Shown here in pieces: positions 45,007 to 47,914 of a stretch of 64,000 nt of DNA. Source of the DNA: an uncultured Kiloniellaceae bacterium. Its GTDB lineage: Bacteria > Pseudomonadota > Alphaproteobacteria > Kiloniellales > Kiloniellaceae. Each line of letters starts with the position of its first letter. Positions within the stretch are counted from its first letter, which is position 1. The stretch spans positions 124,001-188,000 of the forward strand of contig CANLSF010000008.1 of NCBI GenBank assembly GCA_947493695.1, written 5' to 3'. The translations under genes were made by a program, and so were the position numbers. Below the pieces are notes generated by a model that was given only the letters and a program-made list of their open reading frames with translations, did not search any database and had not been told where the DNA came from.

Positions 45007-45534
45007 ATGTTTCAAACGAGGCCTTTAAGGATTTCGAGCAATCCGGCTAAAGCGGTTTTTTTCGTCATTGGATCGCTCGCTTTCGCCGCTTGGGGTATAT
45101 GGTTCGCCGGATTGGGGCCAGACGAAGTTGAAGAATCAGGAGTACGCAGGTTGCGCTGGGCGCATCCCTGGTTCGGCTGGCTGACGGCTGTTTTCTTCGG
45201 ATACGGTGTTTTGGCGTTCCTTCGGGAAGCCTTCGACCGTAGCCCACAGCTCCTGATTCAAGACGAGGGATTGACCTGGCGCCGCTGGGGCGTGAAAGAG
45301 ATTCCCTGGCGGGAGATCACCGAAATCGAACTGAAGGAATACAGAGGCGGGAAGGTCATCGAGATTCAACTGAGAGATCCTGATTGTTACCGGCCCCGGT
45401 TTCCCTTTTCTCTTTTCTCCAGAATCAGCAGGTCGTTGAGCCGTGACAACCTTACAATCTCGACTGCCACCCTGCTCCGTTTGCCTGAGGATATTTTCGC
45501 TACGATGGATTACTTCTGGCGGAAGAACCGATAA
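45007..45534 (+). CDS. STM3941-like membrane protein
   Basis: 175 aa. Two hydrophobic segments occupy about residues 17-37 and 52-70; the remaining part is a PH-like beta domain (LLIQDEGLTWRRWGVKEIPWREITEIELKEYRGGKVIEIQL). This arrangement is that of the STM3941 family, whose function is unknown. It is on its own, convergent with the SRPBCC gene 31 bp away. Confidence 0.7.
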   Translation: MFQTRPLRISSNPAKAVFFVIGSLAFAAWGIWFAGLGPDEVEESGVRRLRWAHPWFGWLTAVFFGYGVLAFLREAFDRSPQLLIQDEGLTWRRWGVKEIPWREITEIELKEYRGGKVIEIQLRDPDCYRPRFPFSLFSRISRSLSRDNLTISTATLLRLPEDIFATMDYFWRKNR

Positions 45535-45565: not shown

Positions 45566-46597
45566 CTAGGGTTGCGATTCGGCTCTGGCTTTAGTGTCTT
45601 CCGCCAGCACACCCATGCTCAGAGTGCCGGCAAGGGCCATCATCGGCTTAAAGATCAGCGACGGCGCGAGTAAACGCTCGTAGTCCAGCGTCACCCTGAG
45701 AAGGCTTCCCTGGTCGCGCGGCACGACTTCGTAAGTGATGGAAGTGATTGCGATCCAGTTCGCCATTGGTGTGCTGTCTGAGATAGTCTCGAAGACGCTG
45801 CGCAGACCCTCCCGTTTGACGACTTCAAGATGAAGCTCGCCCTGACCTTCTCTGCCTGCAAAAACGACAACCCGTTTTGCGCCGAGTTCGGTGCCTTCGT
45901 CGACCCGAACCGCGACGGGTTGCGGGAAGGCTTGCAGAATACCCGGCAAAGGAAACTCGGGGGTGGTCGCCGTTTGCATTGCTGCCCAGACCCTCTCCGG
46001 CGGCGCGCTGATGGCGACCGACGCTGTCGCCTGCCCCGCCCCGGCAAAGCGATATAAGCCTGAAATGCCTTCCAGGCTGGCGATCGCCACCAGCGTGAAA
46101 ACCGTGGCCAGGATGCTCAAATCCTTGAGGTGATTTTTATCGCTTGCCAGTTTCCCAATGGCCTTCACGACGAAATCAAGGAGTCTCGCGGCGAGATAGA
46201 AGGCGAACGCAACGGCGGCCAGCGTGTTTGCCAGGACGACAAGACAAAACAGCGTGACCAGAAAACCATAGAGGTATCCATCCGCTGAGCTCGCCGCGCT
46301 GGGCATCGGCGCCACCGCCATGACTGCCGGTACAAGCAGCGCCAATAACAAGGAACTCATCAGCGCACGGTCGATAACGGTCCGCGCATAACCCGGCTGG
46401 CGGCCGCGCGTCGCGAGCACCCACAGGAAGTGCACGAGCCCGATCACCAGCAAGGGCGAGATAAACTGGAGGCTGGTTTGCACATGTGCTGTTTTCGAGA
46501 TACCCCAGGCGTAGGTCATGCTGAAACACATGGCGAGCGCATGGGCCGGCCAGTCTGCTTTGACCAACGCCCTTGTTCGAAGCCGTCCGCCCGTCAT
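45566..46597 (-). CDS. Membrane protein with C-terminal SRPBCC domain
   Basis: 343 aa. Residues about 18-180 hold five hydrophobic segments (for example SPLLVIGLVHFLWVLATRG and LYGFLVTLFCLVVLANTLAAVAFAFYLAARL). Residues about 190-335 are a START/SRPBCC lipid-binding-type domain beginning ATASVAISAPPERVWAAM, with GAKRVVVFAGREGQGELHLEVVKREG and ITSITYEVVPRDQGSLLRVTLDYE. SRPBCC domains bind hydrophobic ligands. The ATG overlaps the TGA of the desaturase gene (ATGA), so it is translated after it. A link between lipid desaturation and ligand handling is plausible. Fusion of a membrane domain to SRPBCC is uncommon. Confidence 0.72.
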   Translation of the reverse strand: MTGGRLRTRALVKADWPAHALAMCFSMTYAWGISKTAHVQTSLQFISPLLVIGLVHFLWVLATRGRQPGYARTVIDRALMSSLLLALLVPAVMAVAPMPSAASSADGYLYGFLVTLFCLVVLANTLAAVAFAFYLAARLLDFVVKAIGKLASDKNHLKDLSILATVFTLVAIASLEGISGLYRFAGAGQATASVAISAPPERVWAAMQTATTPEFPLPGILQAFPQPVAVRVDEGTELGAKRVVVFAGREGQGELHLEVVKREGLRSVFETISDSTPMANWIAITSITYEVVPRDQGSLLRVTLDYERLLAPSLIFKPMMALAGTLSMGVLAEDTKARAESQP

Positions 46598-47493
46598 GCG
46601 CCGTTCACCCGGACGAGATTTTCCCGCTTCGGCAGGGTTTCAGGCGTCTGGAAGTTCCAGGCCAGACCGCAGCCGTTTAAGGCTTGCAAGACGACCCAGC
46701 CAGGATCGAATTGCCCCTGCTTGAGACCAAGTTTTGCCGATCCGGGAAAGGCATGGTGATTGTTGTGCCAGCACTCTCCGAAGGTGACCAGTCCGAGGTA
46801 ATCAAGGTTATAGCCCTGAGTTGAGGCGCCCTTAAGATGCCAATCCTGCGCGCCGTCATTGTGGGCGAAGTAACCGACGATCCAGTGGCCGAAGATCGAA
46901 ACACTGACACGGGCGCAAATACCCCAGGCTACCCAGCCCCAGCCGCCCAGCGCGAAGAGCAGCACGGCCAGAGGAAGCTGCTGGAGCATCGAAGTCGCCT
47001 GTAAAGCGCGATAGAAGGGATCACCACTGAGCCCTGCGGGATAGTTGAACTCAGGCTCTCGCGACAGGTCGAGCTTGCAATGCAATTGCCACCAGAAATC
47101 GGTCAGGATACCGCGCCTGTGAGCCAGAAAATCGTGGCATTCGGGGTTCCGCTGAGCCCAGTCGCGAACGTCGTGGGTGAACATCATCGTGAAAGGGCCG
47201 CCCAGGCCGACGAGCGTTCCCAGATAGACAAGCAGCCGTTCCAGCCATTTCGGACAATCGAATGAACTGTGGATCAGCTTCCTGTGCATGCCCAGGGAAT
47301 GACCGAAGCACAAAATCACGCCGGACAAGACAAAAAAAACGAGCAGGGCGGCCGGTGAGAAGAAAACCGTTCCAAGCGTGAGCCAGCCCAGAGTCATGCC
47401 GCTCCACCAAAGGGATTTCACCGGACTCCATCTCACGTGTCCGGCCCTGGGGTCCGCGTGGCCGTCGAGGCCTATGCGTTCAAACAGGCTCAT
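46594..47493 (-). CDS. Membrane fatty acid desaturase-like protein with atypical second histidine box
   Basis: 299 aa from ATG 47493 (AGGAT about 10 nt upstream); a longer start at 47544 is in frame. Box 1 is HSLGMH (65-70) and box 3 is ECWHNNHHAFP, as in acyl-CoA/acyl-lipid desaturases. The second box, normally HxxHH, is replaced by HDVRDWAQ (107-114), with His120 and His125 following shortly. Four hydrophobic segments flank the boxes. It probably introduces a double bond or hydroxyl group in a lipid chain. The gene is divergent from an ArsR-type regulator and upstream of a coupled SRPBCC membrane gene. Confidence 0.8.
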   Translation of the reverse strand: MSLFERIGLDGHADPRAGHVRWSPVKSLWWSGMTLGWLTLGTVFFSPAALLVFFVLSGVILCFGHSLGMHRKLIHSSFDCPKWLERLLVYLGTLVGLGGPFTMMFTHDVRDWAQRNPECHDFLAHRRGILTDFWWQLHCKLDLSREPEFNYPAGLSGDPFYRALQATSMLQQLPLAVLLFALGGWGWVAWGICARVSVSIFGHWIVGYFAHNDGAQDWHLKGASTQGYNLDYLGLVTFGECWHNNHHAFPGSAKLGLKQGQFDPGWVVLQALNGCGLAWNFQTPETLPKRENLVRVNGA

Positions 47494-47578
47494 AGTGCCG
47501 GATCCTGCTTCATTGCGAATATTGTACGTTGAAAGAGCGACCATAATCTGATTAACCTATATCTATCTTGTTATTTAC

Positions 47579-47602
47579 CTATATAACTATATAGCTATAT
47601 AT
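47579..47602. promoter_or_regulatory. Triple 8-bp direct repeat/inverted repeat at the ArsR start
   Basis: CTATATA occurs at 47579, 47587 and 47595, an 8-bp period. The first two copies also form an inverted repeat, CTATATA-AC-TATATAG (47579-47594). The array abuts the ATG at 47603 and lies between divergent ArsR and desaturase genes, so it is the best operator candidate for the ArsR protein. There is no purine-rich ribosome site before that ATG. Confidence 0.6.
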
Positions 47603-47914
47603 ATGTCAAACGCAGAACGCATCTTTGATGCTTTGAGTTCCACGCCCCGGCGAAGAATCCTGGCTTACATCGCCGAAGGACCGCTTTCAGCCGGCGAAAT
47701 CGCGGAGCGTTTTGACATGTCCCAACCGGCTGTTTCGAAACATCTTGCGATCCTGAAAGCCGCCGGCCTGGTCTGGACCGAACGTAAAGGTCAATTCATC
47801 AAGTACGGGATGGAGCGTGAGAATCTCGCCGGTACGCTCGCCGGTTTCCTTCAGGAGGTCTGCCCGCCGTCGCGCGCGCTTAGAAAGGAACGCAGTAAAG
47901 CTGGGGAGGAGTGA
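47603..47914 (+). CDS. ArsR/SdpR-type winged-helix repressor
   Basis: 103 aa. The helix-turn-helix is clear: FDALSSTPRRRILAYIAEGPLSAGEIAERFDMSQPAVSKHLAILKAAGLVWTERKGQFIKYGM. There are no Cys pairs, so a metal-sensing ArsR site is not seen; this fits the SdpR/autorepressor subgroup. It is divergent from the desaturase-SRPBCC operon and probably represses both directions through the CTATATA repeats at its start. A start codon directly after the repeats, without a ribosome site, suggests leaderless translation. Confidence 0.85.
   Translation: MSNAERIFDALSSTPRRRILAYIAEGPLSAGEIAERFDMSQPAVSKHLAILKAAGLVWTERKGQFIKYGMERENLAGTLAGFLQEVCPPSRALRKERSKAGEE

Follow-up and report, generated by a model that had tools for sequence, protein, structure and literature searches.

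The window analysed here is a stretch of 64,000 nucleotides from an uncultured marine Kiloniellaceae bacterium, and it contains three adjoining genes that are described below. On the minus strand, 46594..47544 encodes a 316 aa enzyme of the desaturase superfamily, which has the SCD fold and belongs to the HDxRD subfamily, as judged from Pfam, an AlphaFold model, the match to SCD1 and the shared box 2. Its remodelled box 2, residues 124-128 with the sequence HDVRD (HRAHH in SCD1), lies at 47161..47175 on the minus strand; it was placed by alignment and by the 37-residue spacing, and its coordinates were derived from the residue numbers. The second minus-strand gene, 45566..46597, encodes a 343 aa membrane SRPBCC protein composed of five helices and then a Polyketide_cyc2/START-like domain, recognised from PF10604, its model and its linkage. 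The desaturase stop codon occupies 46594-46596 and the SRPBCC gene starts at 46597, which gives an ATGA overlap (46594..46597, minus strand) suggestive of translational coupling. The third gene, 47603..47914 on the plus strand, encodes a 103 aa regulator of the ArsR/SmtB family (HTH_5, HTH_metalloreg) that is SdpR-like and has one invariant Cys. The starts of the divergent ArsR and desaturase genes are separated by 58 bp, and between them, at 47582..47599, is a putative ArsR operator, the imperfect palindrome TATAACTATATAGCTATA, identified by arm pairing and a genome scan. An earlier note on this DNA had described the three open reading frames, the SRPBCC gene beginning in the desaturase stop codon and the ArsR-like gene divergent from the two minus-strand genes, and rereading the window gave the same coordinates and arrangement. 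Nearby, a STM3941-family protein (78.9 bits, cut-off 40) is encoded at 45007-45534 on the plus strand, convergent with the SRPBCC gene, and the segment 42603-44816 has a Bcr/CflA-family MFS exporter (275.5 bits, cut-off 200.9) with a LysR-type regulator divergent from it.

The desaturase belongs to Pfam family FA_desaturase (PF00487), with 31.8 bits, just over the gathering cut-off of 29.7. Its AlphaFold model, made with 39 aligned sequences, has a pLDDT of 87.9 and a pTM of 0.86. In a Foldseek search with this model SCD1 came top (E 2.3e-09 to 1.2e-08), and VIA-align gave Z 23.4-24.3 over 273-287 residues for SCD1 and 8.3 for the next row, which places the enzyme in the SCD fold. A single-sequence search of the PDB returned one match only, with an E of 0.89. 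SCD1 (4ymk, 4zyo, 6wf2) and the window enzyme are alike in the fold over most of the chain, in box 1, in box 3 and in the 37-residue spacing; they differ in box 2 and in the extra H82 of the window enzyme, and their sequence identity is 14-17%. The boxes of the window enzyme are H82-x4-H87-x4-H92, H124-D-V-R127-D128 and H260-x2-H263-H264, and extra histidines, H137 and H142, follow the second. The pattern of three histidine boxes is thus incomplete, with HDVRD standing in place of HxxHH at box 2. His is found at seven of the nine aligned ligand positions, with Arg and Asp at the other two, which we take to be SCD1 ligands H160 and H161. A passage of PMC9825965 describes nine His iron ligands in SCD1, which bind its two irons in groups of five and four.

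Box 2 was compared in one alignment of 56 distinct full-length genes. In the same columns 46 genes have H-xx-RD and 10 have H-xx-HH, with no intermediates; the 46 are HDxRD and the 10 canonical genes HRxHH. The spacing from H87 to box 2 is 37 residues in 46/46 clade genes and in SCD1, and in the canonical genes it is 37 (nine) or 36 (one). The shared spacing of 37 in SCD1 and all 46 clade genes argues against an alignment illusion, and a sequencing error or frameshift behind HDVRD is ruled out because the same motif is found in 45 other genes. What the earlier note had read in the window gene, with boxes 1 and 3 retained, HxxHH replaced and extra histidines shortly after it, is therefore upheld by the alignment that it had proposed as a check. 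Its word "atypical" needs qualifying: the change is real, but it is a property of a large clade and not of the window gene alone.

The substitution is fixed in this clade. R127, D128 and C136 are present in 46/46 clade genes and in all 19 distinct genes sampled from the phylum (two of which the main alignment also includes); in this sample D125 may be Glu and H137 is missing from 6/19 genes (CPPHPSH). The other seven SCD1-type histidines are kept in all 46 genes, save that L037 has Arg at H228 and that L058 lacks box 3, its frame being broken upstream of it; H82 is W in one of the 46 genes and C in another. In a 39-row alignment, A1, the invariant residues include H87, H92, H124, D125, R127, D128, R132, C136, H137, H142, H260, H263 and H264, while H82 and H228 are near-invariant. 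Before these counts we dropped duplicates of the window gene (L001, L021, L062, L101), other duplicates (L064, L102, L103) and partial genes (L008, L013, L020, L061), and L058 was dropped from A1 for its broken frame. The HDxRD clade forms one branch against four outgroup rows with an SH-aLRT of 100, in a quick tree in which long branches meet at that point. With R127, D128 and C136 fixed and the clade a single branch, box 2 probably changed a single time and has been preserved since.

Of 398 genomes sampled from the phylum, 18 have the enzyme, one of these being the window genome; in the window's order it is present in 10 of 61 genomes. The window genome, which shares a genus group with the genomes of L051 (Pelagibius sp. 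Alg239-R121) and L023 (uncultured Kiloniellaceae), has five PF00487 genes: the window gene, one HDxRD paralogue and three of other subclasses. The paralogue lies on the same contig, 142 kb off, and has 46% identity. At its locus (L074; contig 8, 23000-35000), in the segment 4974-6975, a MarR-like regulator lies upstream and a COQ4-like small protein (HDLHH..TGY) downstream; a Pfam search with this MarR-like protein matched no family.

The neighbours of HDxRD genes were surveyed at 39 loci (L022-L060), which were found with peptide patterns of the window desaturase, so that nearer relatives are favoured. In profile searches the SRPBCC gene adjoins the desaturase at 17 loci and an ArsR gene lies in the same short gene run at 17; a MarR-like regulator is found at 13, a COQ4-like protein at seven, DUF4166 at four and COQ7 at one. 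At least one recurrent partner is present at 37/39 loci, the exceptions being L038 and L041. The canonical PF00487 acyl-CoA-type desaturases of the same class (such as L009, L010 and L014) share the superfamily, box 1 and the HNNHH of box 3 with the clade; unlike the clade, they carry HRxHH, and SRPBCC, ArsR, MarR-like, COQ4-like and DUF4166 partners were found at 0/10 canonical control loci of about 3.3-3.75 kb each. MarR-profile matches at 6e-3 to 9e-3, which are ArsR itself, were dropped, as were a distant COQ4-like match in L058, a weak second DUF4166 match in L034 and an ArsR gene in L036 that is 2.4 kb away from the desaturase. As for the partner names, DUF4166 and COQ7 are over the Pfam cut-off and MarR_2 is over it for L035, while the matches to Coq4 fall short of it (E 0.0029 and 0.053).

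Several gene orders occur: ArsR divergent from a desaturase-SRPBCC pair, as in the window; ArsR, SRPBCC and desaturase in one direction; and ArsR, MarR-like regulator, desaturase and COQ4-like protein in one direction. In a second sample of 17 other genomes of the phylum, the region within about 1.5 kb of the enzyme has ArsR in 10, SRPBCC in two, a COQ4-like protein in one and none of these partners in five. On the tree, in which 17 of 50 inner branches are unresolved, SRPBCC switches between present and absent no fewer than 11 times, and so does ArsR; these links have thus repeatedly been retained, lost or re-formed. The partners form a modular set, none of them obligatory, in which ArsR or a MarR-like regulator occurs in varied combinations with SRPBCC, DUF4166 or COQ4-like proteins. 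The SRPBCC protein is an optional partner, as it is absent from 21/39 desaturase genomes and adjacent in only 2/17 genomes of the second sample.

Some loci have features of their own. A conjugative plasmid of Phaeobacter inhibens (L077, 5653-6963) carries an ArsR gene paired with an HDMRD desaturase, and two named plasmid copies that have the motif bear the plain annotation acyl-CoA desaturase. L095 and L100, of the same class, have tandem pairs behind one divergent ArsR, composed of an HDMRDWHQR..CPPHPSH copy and an HEIRDWQQQ copy. A DUF4166 protein gene lies within the operon in L027, L028, L032 and L034, from records titled Hellea. In L031 (1612-3103) a COQ7-family gene (140 bits) follows the HDxRD desaturase closely enough for the two open frames to overlap at the desaturase's end. 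Two related genomes (L075, L076) have a more distant HDxRD paralogue without adjoining profiled partners; by eye, its neighbours resemble pyridine-nucleotide transhydrogenase subunits.

The SRPBCC protein of the window is a member of Pfam family Polyketide_cyc2 (PF10604), with 29.9 bits against a gathering cut-off of 27.4. Its AlphaFold model (pLDDT 75.0, pTM 0.66) matches SRPBCC folds and has five long helices ahead of this domain, as the earlier note had described, but a simple hydropathy scan gave four segments only. The C-terminal domain shares its fold with SRPBCC/Polyketide_cyc2 proteins such as TTHA0849 (2d4r) and ZhuI (3tfz), and differs from these in sitting behind five predicted membrane helices. 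Its sequence identity to other members is 14-20%, except for 59% with L022 and 47% with L025, and iterative profiles join all of them. A single-sequence search of 289 genomes and a profile search of 278 genomes of the class each found the protein in its own genome only; the protein is therefore rare, and this sample is by itself no test of linkage. In the 39 desaturase genomes, the profile found one copy in each of 18, and 17 of these adjoin the enzyme (the L043 copy is weak, 1.3e-7), so that the profile relatives adjoin HDxRD desaturases with one exception. In L025, L026 and L045, which have five clear segments among 16 proteins scanned, most of the positive charges fall in the N-terminus and in loops 2 and 4. 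These loop charges, as we interpret them and not as the output of a trained topology predictor, suggest that the SRPBCC domain would be periplasmic, opposite the desaturase active site; if so, it could not hand lipid over directly to a cytosolic active site.

The regulator matches Pfam HTH_5 with 55.6 bits (cut-off 22) and NCBIfam HTH_metalloreg with 80.4 bits (cut-off 55), which makes it a member of this family; with NCBIfam SdpR it has 84.1 bits, under the cut-off of 100. In the earlier note it was presumed metal-free; a look by eye found no paired metal motifs in it, but C87 is invariant in 19/19 aligned relatives and is a candidate sensor. The regulator resembles the SdpR autorepressor group of ArsR/SmtB proteins in its winged helix and in the palindrome close before the ArsR start in 15/23 regions. 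It is unlike that group in its score and in its neighbour: the neighbour of SdpR is SdpI, and here it is a five-helix SRPBCC protein.

All but one of the 10 arm positions of the window palindrome are paired (shuffle p 0.047). Palindromes at shuffle p < 0.05 occur in 15/23 ArsR upstream regions, the window included, many of which come from related sphingomonads and are not independent, the p values being uncorrected; an example is ATTTTCCTAATTAGGAAAGT, 4 bp ahead of the ArsR ATG. In eight of the 23 (L003, L004, L005, L007, L022, L036, L043, L051), among them L022, the closest relative, no palindrome was better than shuffles at p 0.05. The pattern TATAACTATANAGNTATA, which was built from the sites of the window and of G289 (the L022 genome) themselves, occurs with up to one mismatch only at 47582-47599 in the window genome (6.46 Mb), where few chance hits are expected, and only at the ArsR start in G289. 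Another pattern, TTTCCTNNTTAGGAAA, was searched in six of the 39 genomes, chosen for having the motif or its neighbour. The exact form occurs at a single place in each, which is expected since 0.06 chance hits were calculated per 8 Mb; the informative part is the place, and this is the ArsR start in five genomes. In the sixth, G318, the only exact copy is upstream of a displaced SRPBCC gene (shuffle p 0.070) that sits by itself on a different contig, where no ArsR gene was found next to it, and a copy with one mismatch precedes the ArsR gene. Further one-mismatch sites lie elsewhere (two in G318, one in G320), and a control with the reversed pattern gave two in G318. To judge from this palindrome, the SRPBCC gene of G318 has apparently remained a member of the regulon although it moved out of the operon; it is a single case and the best evidence for a functional link. 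The regulated unit that the earlier note had supposed is well supported by the conserved neighbours and by the palindrome at this relocated gene. An accidental grouping of the genes is ruled out by the neighbour counts, the SRPBCC adjacency and the G318 palindrome.

We slightly favour, at somewhat better than even chances, a reading in which the enzyme modifies lipids in the membrane with the help of iron and represents an SCD-like subfamily yet to be characterised, with the lipid-binding protein as an optional partner and ArsR providing autorepression. The enzyme would be a membrane non-haem iron oxidase or desaturase in which an Arg and an Asp, both invariant, have replaced histidines at two of the nine ligand positions. 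One ligand place is probably filled by Asp128, and His137, His142 or His82 may contribute, so that the site may still bind iron and activate O2 on a lipid with an acyl or some other long chain. The SRPBCC membrane protein would bind the lipid substrate or product, and its translation is probably coupled to that of the enzyme. ArsR would bind the palindrome between the genes and repress its own gene and the operon, and a signal, perhaps sensed at the invariant Cys87, would release it. Of this reading, the fold, the fixed substitution, the co-conservation and the operator-like site come from computation, while iron, catalysis, lipid substrate, repression, signal and topology are inferred. The membrane lipid modification proposed in the earlier note is made plausible by the folds of the desaturase (SCD) and of its SRPBCC partner.

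A change of chemistry or substrate, in which the enzyme would catalyse hydroxylation or another oxidation of an isoprenoid or quinone-like lipid and not acyl desaturation, is unlikely. The COQ4-like protein next to 7/39 desaturases and next to the window genome's own paralogue, together with the COQ7-family gene (140 bits) overlapping the desaturase frame in L031, would fit such a role, and SRPBCC folds bind quinone in COQ10. However, the Coq4 matches are under the Pfam cut-off, COQ7 was found at one locus, and the nearest fold is that of an acyl-CoA desaturase. Quite doubtful, too, is a wider form of this idea, that HDxRD proteins are a separate class of membrane iron oxidases with a mixed His/carboxylate site, in which Asp stands for one His and Arg for another, that they act on a non-acyl membrane lipid such as an isoprenoid or quinone, and that ArsR repression is set by the periplasm-facing SRPBCC protein through sensing or carrying this lipid.

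The canonical box-2 histidines are regarded as essential in SCD enzymes, so the HDxRD clade could be inactive. Its members would then be pseudo-enzymes whose oxygen chemistry disappeared together with the two histidines and which now serve as a lipid-binding or regulatory membrane scaffold, and the regulator genes adjoining the desaturases could be read in this way. In SCD1 an Asn helps to hold a water ligand; nine of the 10 canonical rows have N at this position, and the clade has G (24), S (13), A (8) or T (1) there, without a single N. We consider an inactive clade improbable: two isolated exceptions aside, the remaining histidines persist throughout a deep clade, and R, D and C are fixed alongside them, which is a stronger constraint than expected for a dead site. 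It is very improbable that box 2 has been misaligned and is in truth NPECH (133-137), with only the first His missing and the invariant Cys136 replacing the second: an HMM alignment to SCD1 does pair DWAQRxxxCH with EWARDHRAHH across a 9-residue gap, but the spacing of 37 from box 1 is ungapped and equals that of SCD1 and 9/10 canonical relatives, and two of the three would-be ligands vary (residue 133, and H137, lost in 6/19 genes) while R127 and D128 are never lost, so we think this register wrong.

Hopanoid desaturation as the role of the lipid-modifying enzyme finds no support in data from PMC12583986: Pelagibius litoralis is given there with 0% unsaturated bacteriohopanepolyols, and the candidate enzyme of that paper is annotated as a sterol desaturase. 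No title among the matches listed in open-licence literature mentions the HDxRD motif or the gene set, and the HDxRD family appears to be a branch, so far uncharacterised, of a familiar enzyme class. The histidine boxes count as the hallmark of membrane desaturases. With two box-2 histidines exchanged for a fixed Arg and Asp, this clade offers a natural experiment for finding out which ligands the iron site requires, and the operator-like palindrome offers a direct handle on its regulation.
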